64,000 bases of DNA from an uncultured Eubacteriales bacterium. Lineage in GTDB: Bacteria; Bacillota; Clostridia; Oscillospirales; Acutalibacteraceae. The DNA is taken from positions 1 through 64,000 of the forward strand of contig CATONX010000005.1 of assembly GCA_951801675.1 (NCBI GenBank), read 5' to 3'. Below, in pieces: positions 45,761 to 57,840 of the stretch (its first letter is position 1; each line of letters opens with the position of its first letter). A program made the translations under genes and the position numbers. The notes below the pieces were generated by a model that worked only from the letters and a program-made list of their open reading frames with translations, did no database searches and was not told where the DNA came from.

Positions 45761-45901
45761 ATACTTTGTTTTTCATACCATAGCAGACTGTATTCGATTT
45801 TTATATAAAGGTGGGTTGTTGAATATCGTACGTTTTTAGAATGTTTTTTTGAAATGTGTTAAATCTCCACCGACGCACCGTTTTGGAATGTTGTACAATG
45901 A

Positions 45902-46777
45902 ATGAAAAAGAAAAAACGGAGGCCCAAAAACAATATGAAACGAAAAAAGATCAATATGCTGACACTTCAGAAATTTGAGAAACAACTCAATAAAGAAGAG
46001 AAAAGCCCGGTTACGGTCGAAAAGTATCTGCGTGATGTCCGTCACTTTATCCAGTTTATGGGAGACCGCACCATGGATAAAGCCCTGACGATGGAATACA
46101 AAGCACAGCTTCAGGAGAACTACGCCGTCTCGAGCGCCAATTCGATGCTCGCGTCACTCAATTGTTTTCTGCGCTTTGTCGGTCTGCCTTCCTGCTGTGT
46201 CAAGCAATTTAAGGTACAGCGTCAAACCTACTGTCCGGAGGAAAAGGAACTTACACGGGACGAATACGTCCGGCTGGTAAACACCGCAAAAGACAAGGGC
46301 AGCAAACGGCTGAGCCTGCTGATCGAAACCATTTGCGCAACCGGTATCCGCGTCAGCGAGCTGCAGTTTGTCACAGCAGAAGCGGTTATAAAAGGCGATG
46401 CGACTGTCAGCTGCAAGGGAAAGACCCGGACGGTGTTCATACCCCCAAAGCTGCAGAAAAAGCTGCTTCGATACATAAAAGAGAAGAACATTACTACCGG
46501 CGCCGTATTCGTCACCAGGACAGGCAAACCGATGAACCGGTGCAACATCTGGAAGGAGATGAAATTGCTGTGCGGACGCGCGGGTGTCTCTCCGGGCAAG
46601 GTTTATCCTCACAATCTCAGACACCTGTTCGCAAGAACATTTTACGGAGTTGAACGGGACATCGTCAAGCTGGCGGACATCCTGGGACATAACAATATCA
46701 ATACCACACGGATCTACATCGTCACCACCGGTGCGGAGCATCGCCGCAGAATAGAAGGATTGCGGCTGGTTCTGTAA
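45902..46777 (+). CDS. Tyrosine recombinase/integrase (candidate invertase)
   Basis: Catalytic ATGIRVSEL (R), PHNLRHLFA (HxxR), LGHNNI (H), TRIYIVTT (Y). Start may be 45935 (MKRKKINMLTLQKF). Confidence 0.92.
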   Translation: MKKKKRRPKNNMKRKKINMLTLQKFEKQLNKEEKSPVTVEKYLRDVRHFIQFMGDRTMDKALTMEYKAQLQENYAVSSANSMLASLNCFLRFVGLPSCCVKQFKVQRQTYCPEEKELTRDEYVRLVNTAKDKGSKRLSLLIETICATGIRVSELQFVTAEAVIKGDATVSCKGKTRTVFIPPKLQKKLLRYIKEKNITTGAVFVTRTGKPMNRCNIWKEMKLLCGRAGVSPGKVYPHNLRHLFARTFYGVERDIVKLADILGHNNINTTRIYIVTTGAEHRRRIEGLRLVL

Positions 46778-46808
46778 ATAAAAAAACGGTGCAAAAGCAC
46801 CGAAAACA

Positions 46809-46827
46809 TAATTACAGTTATGTTGTA
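46809..46827 (+). repeat. Left inverted repeat (IRL) of putative invertible promoter
   Basis: TAATTACAGTTATGTTGTA. Exact reverse complement of 47071-47089. Confidence 0.93.
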
Positions 46828-46898
46828 TGAGAAACAATAAAATAGCAATTTTTCGCTATATTCGAAGCGGTAACGATTCCATTTTGGGTATAGAAATA

Positions 46899-46943
46899 AA
46901 AGCTCCTTCTTTTTATTGAAAAGAAAAGATCGGGAGCTTTTTG
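46899..46943. terminator. Bidirectional terminator inside the invertible segment
   Basis: AAAAGCTCC-TTCTTTT...AAAAGAA-...GGAGCTTTTTG. Confidence 0.75.
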
Positions 46944-46998
46944 TGTTGCCTTATATAGGAAAACCCGCTTTCAATCTAAGGGAATTTTCTTATTTATA

Positions 46999-47027
46999 TT
47001 GACTTTTTTTCCCACCCGCTATACAAT
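46999..47027 (+). promoter_or_regulatory. Sigma-A promoter inside the invertible segment, oriented toward TetR/pilus operon
   Basis: TTGACT (46999-47004), 17 bp, TACAAT (47022-47027). Confidence 0.8.
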
Positions 47028-47038
47028 AGTGTATAAAT

Positions 47039-47073
47039 GTAACCAGTCACTAACATATTCAATGGCTGGTTAC
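47039..47073. promoter_or_regulatory. Operator-like palindrome (putative TetR autoregulatory site)
   Basis: GTAACCAGTCA-n13-TGGCTGGTTAC (10/11 arm match) just downstream of the predicted +1. Confidence 0.65.
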
Positions 47074-47089
47074 AACATAACTGTAATTA
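47071..47089 (-). repeat. Right inverted repeat (IRR) of putative invertible promoter
   Basis: TACAACATAACTGTAATTA. Exact reverse complement of 46809-46827. Confidence 0.93.
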
Positions 47090-47123
47090 AGTTGCAAATG
47101 AAACGAAAAGGAGCCTAACAAAA

Positions 47124-47717
47124 ATAAAAAAGATTACGAATAAGGAATTGCTGCTGGATACTACCATGCAGATTATCGCAAAAGGCGGGTTGACCTCTTT
47201 TTCCATGAGACAGGTAACGGATGCGTGCGGTGTATCGGACGCGCTGATCTACCGCCATTTTGAAACGAAGGAAAAGCTTCTTTACCAGTGTTACCGGAAT
47301 GTTGAACAGGAGATTCAGGCGTTATTTGAAAAGGAAGCCGTACCCGCAATCAAAACCCAAGAGGATCTTCGCCGGTATATGCATGATATGTGGATCAAAT
47401 ACTTTACGTTTCTGGTGCAAAACCCCAATAAGACGCTTTTCTATTTCGAGTATCGTGGTTCGAAATATGATGTGTCTGAAACGGCCGGGGATCATACGCC
47501 GCCCTGCTTTGAGAGCGCGAGAGCGTTTATCAAACAACATGCACACAGCAAACTCAGAATAGGGTATTGCAGAATGTATCTTTTCGATGTTACCGGTTCC
47601 TTTGCCAAGAGGATGATCGCAGGAGAACTGTCCACAGATTCGCAGAGCATGGAATTGATATGGGGTTTGCTTTGGTCGGGCATGTCGCACTTGGTAAAAA
47701 GCCGGGAGGATCGGTAG
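47124..47717 (+). CDS. TetR/AcrR family transcriptional regulator
   Basis: N-terminal HTH ...LTSFSMRQVTDACGVSDALIYRHFETKEKLLYQCY. The ORF-track TTG (47148) is 34 nt from AGGAG (47109-47113). A reading from ATA 47124 gives (M)KKITNKELLLDTTMQIIAKGG. Confidence 0.85.
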   Translation: MKKITNKELLLDTTMQIIAKGGLTSFSMRQVTDACGVSDALIYRHFETKEKLLYQCYRNVEQEIQALFEKEAVPAIKTQEDLRRYMHDMWIKYFTFLVQNPNKTLFYFEYRGSKYDVSETAGDHTPPCFESARAFIKQHAHSKLRIGYCRMYLFDVTGSFAKRMIAGELSTDSQSMELIWGLLWSGMSHLVKSREDR

Positions 47718-47761
47718 GTCTTTGAGGCAGAAAAACGGTGGGATAGGAGTGCGCTGCTGTC

Positions 47762-48058
47762 ATGACGGATAAGCAACTGAGAAAACTGAGCCGCTTAGAG
47801 CTTCTGGAGATGCTGCTTGAACAGAGCAGGGAGATGCAGAAGCTGAAGGCAGAGCTCGAAAAGGCAAATGCCTTGTTGGAAGAGCGGCAGCTTGCCATTC
47901 GCAGCGCCGGCTCCATTGCCGAAGCGTCGTTAAAGCTTAACGGCGTGTTTGAGGCGGCACAGAAGGCTGCGGACCAGTACTTGGAAAATGTAAAACGGCT
48001 GGGCGGCGGCTTATGCGAATGCCCGGGAGAAAAAGACGAACCGGGGGAATCCGAATGA
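47762..48058 (+). CDS. Small coiled-coil protein, pilus-operon associated
   Basis: MTDKQLRKLSRLELLEMLLEQSREMQKLKAELEKANALLEERQ. ATGA overlap with the next gene. Confidence 0.65.
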   Translation: MTDKQLRKLSRLELLEMLLEQSREMQKLKAELEKANALLEERQLAIRSAGSIAEASLKLNGVFEAAQKAADQYLENVKRLGGGLCECPGEKDEPGESE

Positions 48059-48654
48059 TCCGGGCAAGAAAAAAGAACACGGTTTCGCAGCCGCTTCCTA
48101 CGATTGGGCAGCTGGAGACGGAACTCAACCGCGTGCGTTACAGGCGCCGGTACAGAAACGTGTTTCGCAGCACGATTTTTACATTGATTACCGTTTCAGC
48201 CATCGCCGTCCTGGTGGCAACGCTGTGGCTGCCGGTGCTGAAAATCTACGGCGCCTCCATGACGCCTACGCTGGAGAACGGCCAGATTGTCCTATCGGTA
48301 AAGTCGGGCGCGTTTGAAACCGGAGATCTGGTGGTCTTCCGGTACAACAACAAGGTGCTCGTAAAACGGTTGATTGCCAAGCCGGGAGACTGGGTGAATA
48401 TCGACGCGGACGGGACCGTATATGTCAACGACCTTCCCCTCGACGAGCCGTATCTGACCGAAAAGGCGCTGGGCGAATGTGATCTGGAGCTTCCTTATCA
48501 GGTTCCGGAATCCCGCTTGTTCGTCATGGGCGATCATCGCAGCGTTTCCGTGGATTCCCGCAGCACAGCGGTCGGCTGCGTATCGGAGGAACAGCTTGTG
48601 GGGAAAATCGTTCTCCGCGTTTGGCCTCTGGATCAATTTGGAAGGGTAAACTGA
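48055..48654 (+). CDS. lepB: Signal peptidase I
   Basis: GASMTPTLENGQIVL (Ser), VLVKRLIAKPGD (Lys), FVMGDHRSVSVDSR. Confidence 0.9.
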   Translation: MIRARKKNTVSQPLPTIGQLETELNRVRYRRRYRNVFRSTIFTLITVSAIAVLVATLWLPVLKIYGASMTPTLENGQIVLSVKSGAFETGDLVVFRYNNKVLVKRLIAKPGDWVNIDADGTVYVNDLPLDEPYLTEKALGECDLELPYQVPESRLFVMGDHRSVSVDSRSTAVGCVSEEQLVGKIVLRVWPLDQFGRVN

Positions 48655-48712
48655 TTTTTTAGCATGCATATTGGATATCTATGGCATATTTGTGGAAAGG
48701 AGAGAAGGGCCA

Positions 48713-51700
48713 GTGAAAACAAAGCCTGGTAAAGCGCAGACGGGCTTGGATCAAAAGCTTTCGGCAAAGAAGCGGCGCAAATGGTATTATACTCTTGCCG
48801 TATCACTGGCGGCGATTGTAGTGTTCTCCACCACCTATGCGTTGATTCTGCCGGCAATCACCATGGAAAAACGCGGCATCACCGGTTGGAGCTGGGTGGA
48901 TAACGATGAGATTCTTATCGAGAACGGCGGCCAGTGGTACCTGAGCCTGCCGGGAGCCAGCGCAAGCAATCCTGCAACGGCAGAAGCGGTGCGTGGGCTG
49001 CTGCCGGAGGAACTGACGGCAACCATGTCCGACGGCACGGCCGGTACGCTTTCGCTGGAATGGAATCTCTCCGCGCTGCCCGAGACCGGTGGATACGAGG
49101 GCGTCTATTCCCTATCCGCCAGCCTGCCGCAGGGCTATACCTTGCAGGAAGGTATCCCGCAGCTGCAGGTCATACTGGTACTGGGCGACGTGCAGCTGTA
49201 TGCCGGGTACCCCGGCGTGCGCACGACTTTGACGCAAGCGCAGCTGGATGCCGCGCTGAAAACCCATACCATACAGGGTATGAACCCGCCAAACACCACC
49301 GTGAACCTTTTTGACTACACCTCGGCAAAGGACGGTGCCATCGAAAAGGACCTTCTGGACAAAACCAACAACGGCGCGGCAGGCCCCGCCGATTGGAACA
49401 AAGGCATTAACTCAAACCGTCTGCTGCTCTTCGGCGATGGAATGGCGGGTGCTGGCTACTGGAACATCGGCGCCGGCGCGGGAAGACAATGGGCGCGCGA
49501 CTATTCCAACATGAAAGGGATCGTGGAGGCCACCTTGACCAACGGCTATCCCATGATCGACCTGAACAAGGCGCGGGAGCCGCTAATCGGTGTAACATCC
49601 TTGAGTTTAAGTCTCGCCAACCTGCACCGGGCCGAAAATATCGGCGCTGCAAACAACCTTGCAAACGCCCAAAACGCCCCGGCGCTGTCAACCACAGTGC
49701 TCACAGGGGCGGGAGCAACAAAAAGATCAGATAACACCTGGGACTATACCAACGTAGACGCGTCTTTGGACTATCTGTTTGACCCGGAAAAGGAATCTGG
49801 ATCCAGTTACAAAAAAGCCTACCAAAATGTCACCGGCCTGTTTCAGATGGATAACGAAGGGTATTACTACTACAGCGCCCGGAAAAATTTTGCCGAGTTT
49901 GTAAAGGACGAGAGCGGCAATGCCACCACGCAGGACGGGAAATCCAGTGACGGATCCTTCACTTTATATGACGGCCCTGCCGTGTGGCGTTCAGACGGAG
50001 GCTGGGACGGCAAAGGCTTTACCGGCGATATGAGTTTGGGGAACTTCTATCCTTTTAACACGGGCAGACAAGTATTTGACAGCCTTGAAACCACTGCAGA
50101 CGGCAGACAGGTTCTGAGCAGCAGCGTGAACCTGGATAACTCCAAATGGTCTCAATCGCAGCAGATGATCAATCAAGCCACCAAGGAAGCGATATATCTC
50201 AACCATCATATGGGAATGTCGCTGGAGATTAACTTTACCCAACCGGTAAACGGCCAAGTGAATATGGGCGCCACCGGCAAACAGGATATGATCTTCGAGT
50301 TCTCCGGTGACGACGATGTTTGGATTTTTGTAGACGATGTGCTGGTACTGGATATCGGCGGCATCCACAGCGAGCTGTACGGCACCATCAATTTCGCCAC
50401 CGGCGAGGTTGTAATGGGCCAAAGCTGGCGAACAAGCGGCAACATACCGCAGACTCCGGGAGAAGGGGCATCTACAACCACTCTCTATGATCTTTTTATA
50501 AATGCTTTGGGGAAGGAAAAAACCGATACGCTCGGCTGGAACGTGACGGCAAACGGGGGGAAAACCTTTGCCAGCAGTTCCTCCCACACCTTGAAGATGT
50601 TCTATCTGGAGCGAGGCAATTACGACTCCAGCTTGCACCTGCGCTTCAATCTGCAGCCGATGCTCTACCAGCATATCAAGAAGGTGGACCAGAACGGCGA
50701 TCCTCTTGCGGGCGTGCAATTCGAGCTGTATGCGGCGAAGCTCAAAGACGGCCTGACTCAAATGAGCAGCAACGTCGGCGACTATGAGCAGATCGGGGAA
50801 GTTCTGGCCACCCTGGAAACCGGAGAGGATGGCACCACCACATTCCTTGAGGAAGACGAAAGCGGCGCTATGCGCCCCTTTAACTTCGCCGACCGGTATT
50901 CCTCAGACGGTACGATATACTACATCTTAAAGGAAACCAAAACCCCCGCCGGATACCGGCCTTTGCCGGAGAATATCGTGTTGCAGTTTAACCCCGACAC
51001 CGCCATGCTGGTGGTAGCAAACCGATATCAGACCGGGGCATATGCGAGCTTCATATCCAATATCGCGGAAATCGGGTCGCTGACTTACGGCGCATTTCAT
51101 GAGAGCTTTGGGGATATTCAACCGAGCAATATCGAAGTAAGCGACCTGAGTAAAAAAGACGGTCTTGTCATCGCGGTACCCATGCTGCTTCAGGAGGGTA
51201 TGACTAAAGAGGAGGAGTCCGGCAAGTGGCTGGCCCTGTACGGCAGCAACACCGCCGGCTTCAACACCGTAATCCCAACCGAGCGCACCGCCGTGGCATG
51301 GCGCACGGCCATTTTAAAGGCGCTGCTGTATCAGTGCAGCGACGAGGACTCGCCGGAGTGGTGTCTCAAGTGGAACGACGACAGCCAGCGGCTGGAGGGC
51401 ATACTCAACGACCTTCCCGGCCGGGCCGACCGCTATGCGCTGAACAACTCACAGGACCCCGATATGAAGATGGTATATGGCGTCATCGAGCCGTATGCCC
51501 TGCAGAAGCTTGGCATTACAGGGACATCGGATGAAGAACGCTACCATAACCTTGGCAATTATGTCCGGCAACGAATCGAGGAGGCATTGGCGCACTTCGA
51601 TGAGGGCGGCGGACAGACCCGGGAAGAGGTTATCGATGCGGTCATTTCGCAGATCGGAGAGACGATCCACAAGACCACATCCGACGGCGGCAGTTATGTG

Positions 51701-53605
51701 GGCAACGGAGAACCGGCACAGCGCGGCTTCAGTTTCCTGAACACCGACCAGTTTCAGCGAGACTTCCGCTCCCTTATCTATATTCCCAACGAGCAGCGGG
51801 AACTGCGGGTGTGGAAAGTGGACGAAGATGGTAAGAGCATCAACGGCGCCAAGTTTACCTTGTATCAGGGCTCTGGTGGAGCCAATGCCAATATCGTCGC
51901 TTCCGGCGTTACCGCAACGGTAGATGGGCAGGACGGTACGCTGATTTTCATGCCGTCACCTCCCACGGACGCTGCCGGTAATATATTGCCTGGGTACGCC
52001 AAAATCGCCTGGGTGGCATCCGGTTTCTCCAACTATACCCTAAAAGAGACCGAAGCCCCGCCAGGTTATCAGGCGAACGATACAGAGATTCCCATTCTGC
52101 TGGGCAATCACTCCATCTACGCCGACGCCGGTACTGCCGATGACGGTATCACCGTCATGGCGGGCGTCGGTAAGCTGATGCAAACCATGACGAAATACGC
52201 TGCCGACGACACAGTGAACATTACGCTCAGAGACATCATCGCCATCGCCCAGACACAGGAAAGCCTGTCGTCCGGTAAAGAATGGAGCCATGACGGCTGG
52301 GTGGATGACAAGCTGGATGGTACCGATGTGCCGCGCAGTATGAATCTCCATTACGGTATCAACGCGGTGGTAAACTACGGCCTTCACGATGAGGACGGCG
52401 GACAGACCATGAACCCCTTCTTCGTTACCGACACGGGCTTTCTGCGCACGCGGGTGATGCAAAACAGCGCCGCACTGGAAAAGGTTATGTACCATGAAGG
52501 CGTCAATACGGCCAACTGGGACGATCTTGGGAATATGGATATCTCAAGCCTCTTCAGTCAGACGAATGTTGTAGTCGTCACAAACAAGAAAACGGAGGAC
52601 ACCGATACCGGAAAACTGATCATCCGCAAAACCATTACCGGACCGGATTTAAAAGATGAGGATTACAGGAAGAACTTTACGTTCACTGTGACGCTCCATA
52701 ACCGTGACGGGCAGCCTTTGACAGATAAGTATTACTACTTCGGTACAGACCGCTCCGGCTATATTGAGAACGGCGGAACTCTCTCGCTGCGCCATGATGA
52801 GGCCGTAACGGTCCTCGGCCTGCCGCTGGGAACGCAGTGGAGCGTGACAGAAACACAGGCTGACGGCTGGCATGTGATTTCCAGCAGCGAAACCATCCGC
52901 GGCTCCATCGAAGCGGATCAGACCGAAACTGCTGCGTTTACAAATACGAGGGGCATTTATCGTACTCTGGAGGGCCTTACCTGGCTGGATGAAAGCATGG
53001 ACGGCATTCAAAACGAGGCCGAGTCCTCCCATCTCTCCGGCGTGAAGGTACAGCTGCTAAAGCTCAAGGAAAACGGCAATCCCGCCAAGGAAGACGATTA
53101 CGAGCCATATCATTTCCAAGGTGACCCGAATCAGCCAATCGTAGAAATTGAAACCGGCCAACAGATCAGCGTGGGTGCGGCGGATGCAAACGCGGCCGCG
53201 GAATATGCGCAGGGCCGGTACAAATTCACCGACCTGCCTGCCGGAACCTTTGCCGTGCGTTTCATGGACGGCACAACCGTGAAGATCGCGGGCTTGACCG
53301 CCTCCCTGCAAAACCAAGGCGACAATGACGAGAAGGACTCCGATGGCGTACCTATCTATTCGGGGAATCCGAAGGTGCTGGAAAAAACGGTGATCTTAGG
53401 GATTGAAATGCCCGAGGCCGATGAGATGCAAACGTCGCTGTATGAATCCAAGTATCACGACAGCGGTTTTCACTCCAAAGGCTATGAGCTGCCCGATACA
53501 GGCGGGCACGGAACCATCTCGTATTCCCTTGCAGGACTGCTGCTGATGGCGACTTCCTATGTGGTATATACGGTCAAGCGCAGGCGGGAGAGACGAATCG
53601 AGTAA
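48713..53605 (+). CDS. LPXTG-anchored pilus adhesin/tip protein with fibro-slime and Cna-B/SpaA domains
   Basis: FEFSGDDDVWIFVDDVLVLDIGGIHSE (fibro-slime). Cna-B E-boxes LKETEAPPGY, LKETKTPAGY. LPDTG plus TM plus KRRRERR. GTG start with RBS. Confidence 0.88.
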   Translation: MKTKPGKAQTGLDQKLSAKKRRKWYYTLAVSLAAIVVFSTTYALILPAITMEKRGITGWSWVDNDEILIENGGQWYLSLPGASASNPATAEAVRGLLPEELTATMSDGTAGTLSLEWNLSALPETGGYEGVYSLSASLPQGYTLQEGIPQLQVILVLGDVQLYAGYPGVRTTLTQAQLDAALKTHTIQGMNPPNTTVNLFDYTSAKDGAIEKDLLDKTNNGAAGPADWNKGINSNRLLLFGDGMAGAGYWNIGAGAGRQWARDYSNMKGIVEATLTNGYPMIDLNKAREPLIGVTSLSLSLANLHRAENIGAANNLANAQNAPALSTTVLTGAGATKRSDNTWDYTNVDASLDYLFDPEKESGSSYKKAYQNVTGLFQMDNEGYYYYSARKNFAEFVKDESGNATTQDGKSSDGSFTLYDGPAVWRSDGGWDGKGFTGDMSLGNFYPFNTGRQVFDSLETTADGRQVLSSSVNLDNSKWSQSQQMINQATKEAIYLNHHMGMSLEINFTQPVNGQVNMGATGKQDMIFEFSGDDDVWIFVDDVLVLDIGGIHSELYGTINFATGEVVMGQSWRTSGNIPQTPGEGASTTTLYDLFINALGKEKTDTLGWNVTANGGKTFASSSSHTLKMFYLERGNYDSSLHLRFNLQPMLYQHIKKVDQNGDPLAGVQFELYAAKLKDGLTQMSSNVGDYEQIGEVLATLETGEDGTTTFLEEDESGAMRPFNFADRYSSDGTIYYILKETKTPAGYRPLPENIVLQFNPDTAMLVVANRYQTGAYASFISNIAEIGSLTYGAFHESFGDIQPSNIEVSDLSKKDGLVIAVPMLLQEGMTKEEESGKWLALYGSNTAGFNTVIPTERTAVAWRTAILKALLYQCSDEDSPEWCLKWNDDSQRLEGILNDLPGRADRYALNNSQDPDMKMVYGVIEPYALQKLGITGTSDEERYHNLGNYVRQRIEEALAHFDEGGGQTREEVIDAVISQIGETIHKTTSDGGSYVGNGEPAQRGFSFLNTDQFQRDFRSLIYIPNEQRELRVWKVDEDGKSINGAKFTLYQGSGGANANIVASGVTATVDGQDGTLIFMPSPPTDAAGNILPGYAKIAWVASGFSNYTLKETEAPPGYQANDTEIPILLGNHSIYADAGTADDGITVMAGVGKLMQTMTKYAADDTVNITLRDIIAIAQTQESLSSGKEWSHDGWVDDKLDGTDVPRSMNLHYGINAVVNYGLHDEDGGQTMNPFFVTDTGFLRTRVMQNSAALEKVMYHEGVNTANWDDLGNMDISSLFSQTNVVVVTNKKTEDTDTGKLIIRKTITGPDLKDEDYRKNFTFTVTLHNRDGQPLTDKYYYFGTDRSGYIENGGTLSLRHDEAVTVLGLPLGTQWSVTETQADGWHVISSSETIRGSIEADQTETAAFTNTRGIYRTLEGLTWLDESMDGIQNEAESSHLSGVKVQLLKLKENGNPAKEDDYEPYHFQGDPNQPIVEIETGQQISVGAADANAAAEYAQGRYKFTDLPAGTFAVRFMDGTTVKIAGLTASLQNQGDNDEKDSDGVPIYSGNPKVLEKTVILGIEMPEADEMQTSLYESKYHDSGFHSKGYELPDTGGHGTISYSLAGLLLMATSYVVYTVKRRRERRIE

Positions 53606-53678
53606 TTATTTATGGTGTATGCCGTGTGTAACGGATATGAATTAGGTGTTTATTACAATTTGAAAGGATGATAAACCA

Positions 53679-55250
53679 ATGAAAACAAGTAAGAAAATCT
53701 CAGCACTCCTACTATCTCTGATGATGATTCTGGCGCTGGGCGTTACCGCTTTCGCACAAGAGGCGTCTCCTGCTGCCAGTGCGGACCAAGGGAACGGCTC
53801 CATTACGGTCCAAAACGCCGCCAAGGGAGAGACCTACAAGCTGTACCGCCTGTTTGACGCTGCGGTTTCCGCAGCGCAGACGGAGGGAAAAGCAGATTCC
53901 ATCGTCTATACCGGCACGATCCCTGACGGCCTGAGCACGTATTTTACCGCTGATGCAAACGGCTACATCACCGCGGCGGACGCCGCCTGGAAAGACGCCA
54001 CCACCAAGGTGGAAATGAGCGACGGACTTCGAACCGCCCTGGAGACATGGGCAAAGAATGAGGGAATCACCCCTGTCGCTACCGCGACAAGCGATGGCAG
54101 TGAGCTTACGTTCAAATCCCTCAAATACGGCTATTATGTTGTGGTCAGCACCCAGGGAACCGCCATCTCCGTGGACTCCACCAACCCCAACGCAACCATC
54201 GTGGATAAAAACAGCACGGGACCGAAAGACCTGACCAAAACCACCGAGGATGACAATGTCAACATTGGGGACACGGTTACATATACCGTTCGTTTTTCTA
54301 CTTCCAACTATGACGGTGCCGGCAAAGAGGCGAAAAAGATCGTTTCCTATACCATCACCGATACCTTGCCAGAGTTCCTGACCAGTGTGAATGTGACCAG
54401 TATCCTGATCGACAATGACGGCAATGCCGAAACCACCGACGACCAGACGACGCTCTCCCCCGCTCCTCAGTTCAATAACAAGAAAATCGTCCTTGACTGG
54501 TACGACAAAACGAAGAACCAGTTTTTGTATGACAACGGCGCAGCCGTCATCATTACCTACACCGCCGTCGTGACCGACAAAGCGGCGATTGACGGCGCCG
54601 GAAACACCAACGAGGTAACCCTTCAGTGGACGACTGAGGACAATACGGAACCGGGCCCCGGCAAGCTGGAAAGCTCGGAAACCATTTATACCTACGCGCT
54701 TGCATTGAAGAAGGTAGATGAAAAGGGCCAAGGCCTGGCAGATGCCAAGTTCCAGTTCCCCTTTTATGTCAAAGAGGCCCCGGACGCGGACGGCGCTTAC
54801 ATCTATGCGGGTAAAAACGCAGATGAAGGCCTTGTAAATGAACTGACGACTCCCGCCAATGGTTTGATTGTTGTGAAGGGCCTGAAAGCGGATACGGAGA
54901 TTTCCGTCACGGAGACTGCCGCACCGAACGGTTATAATAAGCTTGCCGATCCTGTTAAAGTGACGCCTACCAAGACCGGCGCGTCCACTACGAATACGAC
55001 CATCTATTTGGATGCCGACGGCAACGTGTTGGAAGAGGTAAACGATCAGGCAATAACGGTTGCGGTTAAGATTGATGAGCTTTCCGCTACCGCGGTGGCC
55101 GTTCTCAATAAGACCGGCTCCCTCCTCCCCTCCACCGGCGGTATCGGTACCACGATTTTCTATGTGGCCGGTTCGATCCTGCTTGTGGGAGCCGCCATAT
55201 TCTTTATCGTCAGAAAGCGTATGAGTGTGGAAGATCAGACAACGGATTAA
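53679..55250 (+). CDS. Major pilin, isopeptide-forming, LPXTG-anchored
   Basis: Signal peptide, TETAAPNGY E-box, LLPSTGGIGTTIFYVAGSILLVGAAIFFIVRKR. Confidence 0.9.
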   Translation: MKTSKKISALLLSLMMILALGVTAFAQEASPAASADQGNGSITVQNAAKGETYKLYRLFDAAVSAAQTEGKADSIVYTGTIPDGLSTYFTADANGYITAADAAWKDATTKVEMSDGLRTALETWAKNEGITPVATATSDGSELTFKSLKYGYYVVVSTQGTAISVDSTNPNATIVDKNSTGPKDLTKTTEDDNVNIGDTVTYTVRFSTSNYDGAGKEAKKIVSYTITDTLPEFLTSVNVTSILIDNDGNAETTDDQTTLSPAPQFNNKKIVLDWYDKTKNQFLYDNGAAVIITYTAVVTDKAAIDGAGNTNEVTLQWTTEDNTEPGPGKLESSETIYTYALALKKVDEKGQGLADAKFQFPFYVKEAPDADGAYIYAGKNADEGLVNELTTPANGLIVVKGLKADTEISVTETAAPNGYNKLADPVKVTPTKTGASTTNTTIYLDADGNVLEEVNDQAITVAVKIDELSATAVAVLNKTGSLLPSTGGIGTTIFYVAGSILLVGAAIFFIVRKRMSVEDQTTD

Positions 55251-55275
55251 TTTGTTCAAAGAAAATTCTGTGTGT

Positions 55276-55306
55276 AAAAGCCGGGGGTCTTTTCGGTCCC
55301 CGGCTT
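55276..55306 (+). other. Intra-operon hairpin between major pilin and sortase genes
   Basis: AAGCCGGGGgtcttttcggtCCCCGGCTT without a T tract. Confidence 0.6.
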
Positions 55307-55328
55307 ACAGCAGTAAGGAGAAGCCTGT

Positions 55329-56171
55329 ATGAAAAAGCGATTGCCTACTCTTTTTTTCATTCTTGTCTTTCTTACAGGCCTGTCCCTTCTGCTGTACCCA
55401 ACGGTCAGCGACTGGTGGAACTCGCTGCATCAGTCCCGTGCGATTGCCAGCTATACGCAGGAGATCGCCAATATGGATGACGCAAAATATGAGCAGCTTT
55501 TGAGAGACGCCCAGGCGTATAACGAAACGCTGATCAAACGGACTGGCGACCGCTTTACGCTTTCGGATGAGGAACTTTCGGAGTATAACGCTGTATTGGA
55601 TGTATCCGGTACGGGAATCATGGGATATATTGAAATTCCCGTTTTGCAAACCAAATTGCCTGTCTATCACGGTACCGGCAATGCGGTGCTGTCGACAGGG
55701 GTGGGGCATATCGAGGGCAGCAGCCTGCCGGTAGGCGGCGAGAGCACACACTGTGTCCTGTCCGGCCATCGGGGACTGCCCAGCGCAAAGCTGTTTACCA
55801 ATCTGGATCTGCTGGTGGAGGGCGATATTTTTCTGCTCCACACGCTGGATGAAACGCTCACCTATGAGGTGGATCAGATCCGCATTGTGATGCCTCAGGA
55901 AACAAGCGACCTGTATATTGAAGAAGGCATGGATTACTGCACGCTGGTGACCTGTACGCCTTACGGCGTCAATACCCATCGGCTGCTGGTGCGGGGGCAC
56001 CGGATAGAAACGGAAAAGGCGCAGCAGACGGTCCGTGTAACCGCCGACGCTATTCAGATCGAACCACTGCTGGTAGCACCCTTTGCGGCAATCCCGCTGT
56101 TGCTGGTGCTTTTGGTTGCGCTACTTTTTAAGACCCGGAAAAAGAAGCCGAAGAAAAAGGGATCGGAGTGA
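55329..56171 (+). CDS. srtC: Class C sortase (pilin polymerase)
   Basis: LSGHRGLPSAKLFTNLD, TLVTCTPYGVNTHRLLVRGHR, C-terminal TM. Confidence 0.92.
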   Translation: MKKRLPTLFFILVFLTGLSLLLYPTVSDWWNSLHQSRAIASYTQEIANMDDAKYEQLLRDAQAYNETLIKRTGDRFTLSDEELSEYNAVLDVSGTGIMGYIEIPVLQTKLPVYHGTGNAVLSTGVGHIEGSSLPVGGESTHCVLSGHRGLPSAKLFTNLDLLVEGDIFLLHTLDETLTYEVDQIRIVMPQETSDLYIEEGMDYCTLVTCTPYGVNTHRLLVRGHRIETEKAQQTVRVTADAIQIEPLLVAPFAAIPLLLVLLVALLFKTRKKKPKKKGSE

Positions 56172-56175
56172 TGAT

Positions 56176-57054
56176 ATGAAAAACAGACTGTACAGGCTAT
56201 TGCCGGCCATGCTGGTGCTTTTCCTGCTGTGCAGCGCAGTTGACGTATTGGCAGCCGAAAAGGATACGGTCGATTGGTCGAAAAAAGGAGCGGTGAGCGT
56301 CACTTTGCAAGCGGACGCAACGCCGATTTGCGCAGCGGAGCTGACGCTGTATAAAGCAGCGGACGCGCAGATTCGGGGAAACAACCTCTGCTTTACTTAC
56401 ACGCACGCTTTCAAAGACTTCGGCGGCGCGCCGGAGGATATCAGAGATATCACCGCCATACAGCGCCTCGCCGCCTATGTGAAGGAAAAGGGAATCCCCG
56501 GTCAATCGGCAAAATCGGACGCGAATGGAACCATCCGAATCAATGAACTGCCTTTGGGGCTTTATCTTGTGGTGCAGACCGGCAGCGTGGAAGGCTTTTC
56601 CGACTGTACGCCGTTTCTCATTGCGCTTCCGTTTGAGGAAAACGGCGAATGGTGCTATGAAATCGATGCCACGCCGAAAACCGATATGGTGCAGCTGATC
56701 GAGATTACGGTGAAAAAAGTCTGGAACGATGACGGGAAACACCGGCCGGACAGCGTCACTGTACAGTTATATAAAGGCGATACGGCAATCGATTCCGTTA
56801 CGCTGAGGGAACAAAACGGCTGGACCCATACATGGAAGAACCAGCCCAAAAGCGACGATTATACCGTCAAAGAGACCGTTCCAAAGGGATATACCGCCGC
56901 TTACCAACGCAACGGGTATACCTACACGATAACAAACACGGAAGGACTCATTGATACAGGCCAGCTGATATGGCCTATCCCTGTATTGGCAGGCGCGGGA
57001 ATTTTATTGTTTGCTCTGGGCTGGTTTGTGTGGAGGAAGAAGAGAGATGCGTAA
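56176..57054 (+). CDS. Minor/basal pilin with Cna-B domain
   Basis: Signal peptide, VKKVWNDDGKHRPDSVTVQLYKGD (Cna-B), C-terminal LIDTGQLIWPIPVLAGAGILLFALGWFVWRKKR. Confidence 0.85.
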   Translation: MKNRLYRLLPAMLVLFLLCSAVDVLAAEKDTVDWSKKGAVSVTLQADATPICAAELTLYKAADAQIRGNNLCFTYTHAFKDFGGAPEDIRDITAIQRLAAYVKEKGIPGQSAKSDANGTIRINELPLGLYLVVQTGSVEGFSDCTPFLIALPFEENGEWCYEIDATPKTDMVQLIEITVKKVWNDDGKHRPDSVTVQLYKGDTAIDSVTLREQNGWTHTWKNQPKSDDYTVKETVPKGYTAAYQRNGYTYTITNTEGLIDTGQLIWPIPVLAGAGILLFALGWFVWRKKRDA

Positions 57055-57655
57055 AAAGAGCGGCGCCCTGTGTATGGCATTTGGCGTTCTTTTGATTGGG
57101 GCGGCAATCGCACTGGCGGCATTGAATCAACTGGAGGCGTCAAATGCCGCCCATGCGGCGAATACGGTTTTGCCGCTGCTGCAGCAGGCGATTGCAGACC
57201 GCACGCATACGGAAAAGTCTGAAAGCCCGGATGAGGCGGACAAAACTGTGCTGGTAAGGGAGATGACGGAAGTAGAAATCGATGGATACAATTATATCGG
57301 CTATCTGTCGATTCCCGCGCTGGAACTGGAGCTGCCGGTGATGGCCAACTGGGATTATACGCGGCTAAAAAAGTCCCCCTGCCGGTATTACGGCTCTGTC
57401 TTTACGGATAATCTGGTGATTGCTGCCCATAACTACGCCCGTCATTTCGGAAGTCTTGCCGATTTGCGTATGGGCGATACCGTACGGTTTACGGACATGG
57501 ACGGGGTGGTTTATACCTACGAGGTCTGCGATTTGGAAACCCTGCCGCCAACTGCCACGGAAGAAATGCTTCAAAGCGGGTGGGATTTGTCCCTGTATAC
57601 CTGCACTCTCGGCGGCGGCAGCCGTGTGACCGTGCGCTGTGAACAAGTGAGCTAA
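57047..57655 (+). CDS. Second sortase (class uncertain)
   Basis: AAHNYARHFG (His), LYTCTLGGGSRVTVRCE (Cys, Arg), N-terminal TM. Confidence 0.85.
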   Translation: MRKKSGALCMAFGVLLIGAAIALAALNQLEASNAAHAANTVLPLLQQAIADRTHTEKSESPDEADKTVLVREMTEVEIDGYNYIGYLSIPALELELPVMANWDYTRLKKSPCRYYGSVFTDNLVIAAHNYARHFGSLADLRMGDTVRFTDMDGVVYTYEVCDLETLPPTATEEMLQSGWDLSLYTCTLGGGSRVTVRCEQVS

Positions 57656-57840
57656 ATATGCAAAACGGTGCAAATATGGCGCTGTGATGTAAAACCCTGC
57701 TTCAAAAGCGGTATGGAGTGTTTTTCTCTTGCCCCAAGTCTTAGGATAAATGCCGCTTATCCCATATAAGGCAAAGCTCAGCAGAGTGATTTCCAACGGA
57801 TTTTTATTGTTTTTTGCGCTTTGAAAAAAGGCAAAAAAAT

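Follow-up and report, generated by a model that had tools for sequence, protein, structure and literature searches.

A probable invertible promoter in front of a sortase-dependent pilus operon in a Clostridia genome

Results

Organization of the locus

The window, that is, the whole stretch of 64,000 nucleotides analysed here, contains a tyrosine recombinase gene followed by a pair of inverted repeats around a short intergenic segment and, further downstream, by a TetR-family regulator and a cluster of pilus genes (Table 1). The cluster combines an LPXTG major pilin, a class C sortase and ancillary pilins, and constitutes a complete SpaA-type sortase pilus operon. In G036, a genome from the same family as the source genome and a different genus, the TetR gene starts with ATG-GTG after a ribosome-binding site; in the window (47115-47150) these two codons are replaced by CTA-ACA, so that TetR here might be translated from a weak codon (TTG 47148) or made in small amounts.

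Table 1. Coordinates of genes and sequence elements at the switch and in the pilus operon
Feature	Position	Strand	Basis or detail
Tyrosine recombinase, 280 aa, proposed invertase	45935..46777	+	PF00589, PF02899; alignment of 18 relatives
Leftward intrinsic terminator CGGTGC-TTTT-GCACCG-TTTTTTT	46802-46787	-	Fold; 51/84 family loci
Left recombination site	46805..46827	+	Core ACATAA-TTACAG-TTATGT at 46806-46823
Putative invertible segment, 243 bp	46828..47070		Left part inverted beside right site in G036
Hairpin within the segment, terminator-capable in both directions	46898..46943		Fold -17.8 and -14.4 kcal/mol
Sigma-A promoter TTGACT-17-TACAAT	46999..47027	+	ON orientation; position agrees with family
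Dyad GTAACCAG-N19-CTGGTTAC, 35 bp	47038..47072		Sequence and fold
Right recombination site	47071..47093	-	Minus-strand core ACTTAA-TTACAG-TTATGT
TetR-family regulator, first switched gene	47115..47717	+	PF00440; comparison with G036
98-aa protein, function unassigned	47762..48058	+	Domain search
Signal peptidase I	48013..48654	+	TIGR02227
1644-aa LPXTG pilus protein, probable tip/ancillary adhesin	48671..53605	+	SpaA, fibro-slime domains
Major pilin, SpaH/EbpB type, LPXTG	53679..55250	+	NF033902 above cut-off
Class C (pilin) sortase	55329..56171	+	NF033745, 280 bits, cut-off 160
Cna_B / SpaA domain minor pilin	56170..57054	+	Domain match
Second sortase	57011..57655	+	PF04203

The recombinase, whose start was chosen by conservation with G036, retains an intact reading frame and the full catalytic set R139, K163, H226, R229, H252 and Y261; its designation as the cognate enzyme of the repeats rests on the linkage described below. 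A first-pass annotation of this DNA had likened the locus to fim-like switches, a label that suits its layout and not its ancestry, as the protein scores 26.7 bits against the Fim-type invertase model PRK09870 (cut-off 221) and 22.4 bits against PRK09871 (cut-off 222). The XerC and XerD equivalog models give 103-109 bits against cut-offs of 330-335, and the nearest solved structures are 4a8e, 5hxy and 1a0p. Judged by these scores, the recombinase is nearer to Xer proteins than to the Fim type, and is neither Fim-type nor XerC/D proper.

The inverted repeat that drew attention to the locus was found as first described, with 23-nt arms that are complementary at 22 of 23 positions, perfectly so over 19 nt, and 243 bp between them. 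Within the 64 kb, this 19-nt run is the only perfect inverted run of at least 14 nt with arms 30-1000 bp apart, and dinucleotide-model sequences of the same length contain on average 0.10 inverted 15-mers at that distance. The 18-bp site is present in exactly two copies in the 2.36-Mb genome, one per strand and both at the switch. One base in the outer half of the right site is off consensus, and the same change is found in G036.

Inside the segment, the sigma-A promoter named in the first-pass annotation was recovered with 10 of 12 consensus matches. Taken alone, a match of this quality carries no significance (2 found versus 3.3 expected in the scanned stretch); its position, with the end of the -10 box 43 bp ahead of the right arm, fits the pattern of the recombinase family described below. 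The promoter points rightward at TetR and the pilus genes, co-directional with it, so that the assembled orientation is ON, as had been proposed. The hairpin earlier called a bidirectional terminator folds with -17.8 kcal/mol (z -3.8) on one strand and -14.4 kcal/mol (z -3.6) on the other.

Two further elements were absent from the first-pass annotation. A leftward intrinsic terminator sits between the recombinase gene and the left arm, and bears on the earlier proposal that inversion turns the promoter toward the recombinase: the flipped promoter would indeed face leftward, but transcription into the gene is unlikely given the terminator that intervenes. The second element, a dyad located at the predicted transcript start and extending into the right site, is a possible TetR operator or leader hairpin; a search of 35 promoter leaders for a similar leader hairpin showed that the family does not share it.

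Sites, spacers and promoters across the recombinase family

Related loci were analysed in named genomes (80 loci) and whole-genome relatives (39 loci); these are the best-scoring matches listed, some of them closely related to each other, and not a random sample. A repeat pair lies within 600 bp 3' of the recombinase in 58 of the 61 best-scoring named-genome loci with at least 560 bp of downstream sequence, compared with 1 of 77 upstream controls and 0 of 54 controls further downstream. Taken with the comparison of the 64 kb to model sequences, this rules out a chance origin of the repeat.

The same linkage bears on which enzyme acts at the sites. In principle, the segment could be flipped mainly by a different cellular recombinase working in trans, in the manner of C. 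difficile RecV, with the adjacent gene serving as a helper or left as a relic. Master recombinases of this trans-acting kind have precedent in Clostridia (PMC5903667), and the source genome encodes further Xer-like proteins. Such an arrangement is nonetheless highly improbable in view of the tight coupling of the recombinase family to its site type at 58 of 61 loci and of the restriction of the site to the switch within the genome. The family-wide linkage instead argues strongly that the adjacent recombinase is the flipping enzyme and that flipping is ongoing in the source organism.

The family site is ACATAA-N6-TTATGT. Its N6 spacer is identical between the two arms in 54 of 54 scored loci, while 41 distinct spacers occur among the loci and two loci share a spacer in only 1.1% of comparisons; this combination of identity within a locus and variety between loci points to a strand exchange dependent on matching spacers, and other explanations fit it poorly. 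Tandem copies of the site (two or more), on one or both sides, are seen at L041, L048, L148 and L038, the last of which is a contig end in G036; they would allow alternative inversions.

Of 84 segments, 53 have a strong promoter confined to a single strand, and in 49 of these 53 the distance from the end of the -10 box to the arm ahead of it is 28-52 bp; in a control with shuffled segments, 15% of the best promoter matches lay within 25-55 bp of an arm. Scored with an approximate sigma-A matrix written for this analysis, which makes the counts estimates, 15 of the one-sided promoters point toward the downstream gene (ON) and 38 toward the recombinase (OFF). At 53 of 56 loci, the first gene past the switch is oriented outward from it. 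Like the window, 51 of 84 loci have a leftward terminator-like hairpin in the gap between recombinase and left site, as against a rightward one at a single locus and none in shuffled gaps; moreover, G036 keeps the stem of this guard terminator through a paired change (CGGTGC/GCACCG to CGGCGC/GCGCCG). Its likely role is to keep the promoter, when turned OFF, from producing antisense transcripts of the recombinase gene.

Contig ends were also found to be unevenly placed, with 22 of them at most 200 bp from the recombinase match on the switch side (12 at the 80 named-genome loci and 10 at the 39 whole-genome loci) and 0 on the other side (sign test, 5e-7); a few of the switch-side ends lie just within the 3' end of the recombinase gene and not at the site. 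Such ends would arise naturally where a sample contains both orientations, and in multi-copy genomes, chiefly G065 and G094, repeated sequence may be another source. The window's own contig is unbroken across the switch, which counts against an invertible segment.

An inverted sister locus in another genus

When further orthologues of the operon and its switch were sought in 398 genomes of the family, only G036 was found to carry them. Its recombinase is 89% identical to that of the window, and its locus is split over two contigs: C37 terminates exactly in the left site, present there as two tandem copies (L038), and C59 starts within the segment and runs on across the right site into TetR. 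Read in the operon direction, the first 202 bp of C59 match a computed OFF version of the window over their full length (81%), whereas alignment to the assembled ON form is limited to bases 81-202, the outer 122 bp. The flipped segment, which the first-pass annotation had suggested looking for in related genomes, is in this way represented by the OFF arrangement of G036. Both orientations are accordingly found in nature, ON in the window and OFF in its orthologue, in a comparison that is between genera and includes one genome of the source species. The G036 assembly lacks the half of the segment that would carry the promoter, a point that counts against the invertible-promoter reading.

These data weigh on two accounts that dispense with present-day inversion. 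One holds that the window preserves a former switch locked ON, with recombinase or sites dead and the promoter constitutive for the pilus operon. While the exclusively ON assembly, the unbroken contig and the off-consensus outer base of the right site would agree with this, the catalytic residues and reading frame are intact, the perfect 19-bp repeat has been retained and the outer-base change is common to G036, whose segment is inverted; we regard a locked switch as very unlikely. The other account takes the repeats as operators or binding sites of a regulator, either TetR or a recombinase-like DNA-binding protein, that loops DNA without inverting it. It deserves next to no credence, since the segment interior is inverted in G036, the spacers covary within loci even though the arms alone would suffice for binding, and the repeats track the recombinase across a family in which few loci have a TetR gene; set against this are the position of TetR as first gene, the dyad symmetry of the sites and the additional dyad at 47038-47072. 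Repeats acting solely as operators were rejected on account of the inverted G036 interior and the association of repeats with recombinase.

Window and G036 share 83-85% DNA similarity over 45878-57668, and this similarity stops at both edges. Close to the right edge, a housekeeping gene shows 68% identity to its G036 counterpart, as opposed to 84% to that of G002, a genome of the same genus as the source. Because the block is 83-85% identical and the neighbouring housekeeping gene only 68%, the 11.8-kb recombinase-switch-pilus module appears to have moved horizontally, and was probably transferred between genera as one block. In same-genus relatives this unit was not found, except for recombinase fragments in G002. 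The upstream flank had no match in G001, G002 or G036, in a search that had no positive control and shows little.

Genes behind related switches

Beyond the window and G036, a SpaA/sortase operon follows the switch in G009 (locus L048). Other downstream cargo includes collagen-repeat, LRR_5, InlB-type repeat, cohesin/dockerin, SLH, C-lectin and VWA proteins, as well as signal peptidases, camelysin-like proteins, SPFH/Band-7 proteins and helicases with HA domains. SPFH/Band-7 zinc-ribbon operons, one of them with a TIR-TPR protein, and DEAD helicases with HA domains stand behind switches at L044, L081, L096, L153; L045, L091, L131, and are no obvious surface structures.

One genome, G094, contains 20 matches to the recombinase family (at loci including L064-L066 and L068-L077). 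A type IV pilin N-methylation signal is present in 10 of 10 first downstream proteins tested from its cassettes. Of 11 G094 segments scored, 2 are ON and 9 OFF, and paralogous segments lie in opposite orientations (L065 versus L068, L072 and L077). Five segments are 100% identical, which makes exchange between G094 loci possible.

Discussion

The features described above are best accounted for by an invertible promoter (inverton) that controls the sortase-dependent pilus operon, a reading to which we assign a probability of about 0.93. The recombinase (45935-46777) would bind both ACATAA-N6-TTATGT sites, and strand exchange inside the spacer would flip the 243-bp segment. In the ON state, the rightward promoter would transcribe TetR and the pilus genes; in the OFF state, it would fire leftward, its transcript being halted by the terminator at 46802-46787 ahead of the recombinase gene, and the hairpin within the segment would keep read-through from the recombinase out of the operon, leaving the latter silent. 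Pilus expression would then be expected to track the orientation of the segment.

Invertible promoters, of which a 2019 Science study is reportedly a survey, are less well described in Clostridia than in Bacteroides. The fimS/FimB-FimE system of E. coli type 1 fimbriae shares with the window a promoter on a short invertible segment, an adjoining tyrosine recombinase and a pilus operon downstream. The window differs from it in the family of the recombinase, in having one recombinase and not two, in its sites, in the Gram-positive sortase pilus that it precedes and in the terminator that guards the recombinase. XerA, XerC and XerD have the same catalytic set as the window recombinase and belong to the same overall family, but the window protein is far under the XerC/XerD cut-offs and is tied to a repeat pair instead of a chromosomal dif site.

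In C. difficile, the cwpV switch works via a terminator and not a flipped promoter. The switches of this species, which comprise those of RecV (cwpV, flgB and others) and Cdi7 with its own adjacent recombinase (PMC5903667), are, like the window, clostridial tyrosine-recombinase switches of surface structures or signalling; RecV, however, acts in trans on several unlinked sites, unlike the linked pair of the window.

Clostridial invertons with adjacent tyrosine recombinases, whose flipping was seen in reads, have been described in Clostridia of a defined gut community (PMC11892184, Microbiome 2025), where the strongest link is that of inverton group 139 with invertase group 35. According to the passages of that paper on group 139, nearly all of its invertons have a tyrosine recombinase close by and 32 of 33 come from Clostridia; in the two examples given with coordinates, the arms measure 14 and 26 bp and enclose 227 and 205 bp, respectively. 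Geometry, host class and recombinase linkage agree with those of the window family, and a comparison on these three counts suggests that the two are probably the same or overlapping. The same passages make no mention of sortase pili, whereas the window switch precedes one. In the literature searched, with most subscription journals outside its reach, no direct precedent for an invertible sortase-pilus promoter in Clostridia was found.

A broader and more tentative proposal, which we consider somewhat less probable than its opposite, is that recombinase, guard terminator, ACATAA-N6-TTATGT pair and one-sided promoter form a self-contained cassette that moves horizontally before unrelated operons of Clostridia, with the spacer as locus label, and that may have reached about 20 copies in the G094 lineage (at least 10 of them before type IV pilin-like genes, few ON). 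That the spacer could act as a locus-specific address label is a hypothesis: the wide differences between loci would suit it, but most of the G094 copies have one spacer in common, which speaks against it.

For the organism, the proposed switch leads to the expectation that an adhesive pilus is expressed clonally ON or OFF in this Clostridia lineage, a prediction that the exact junctions given here (Table 1) would make testable in reads. For the family as a whole, the site rule (ACATAA-N6-TTATGT just 3' of the recombinase), together with the position of the promoter and the guard terminator, would make switches and their assembled state readable from hundreds of Clostridia assemblies.
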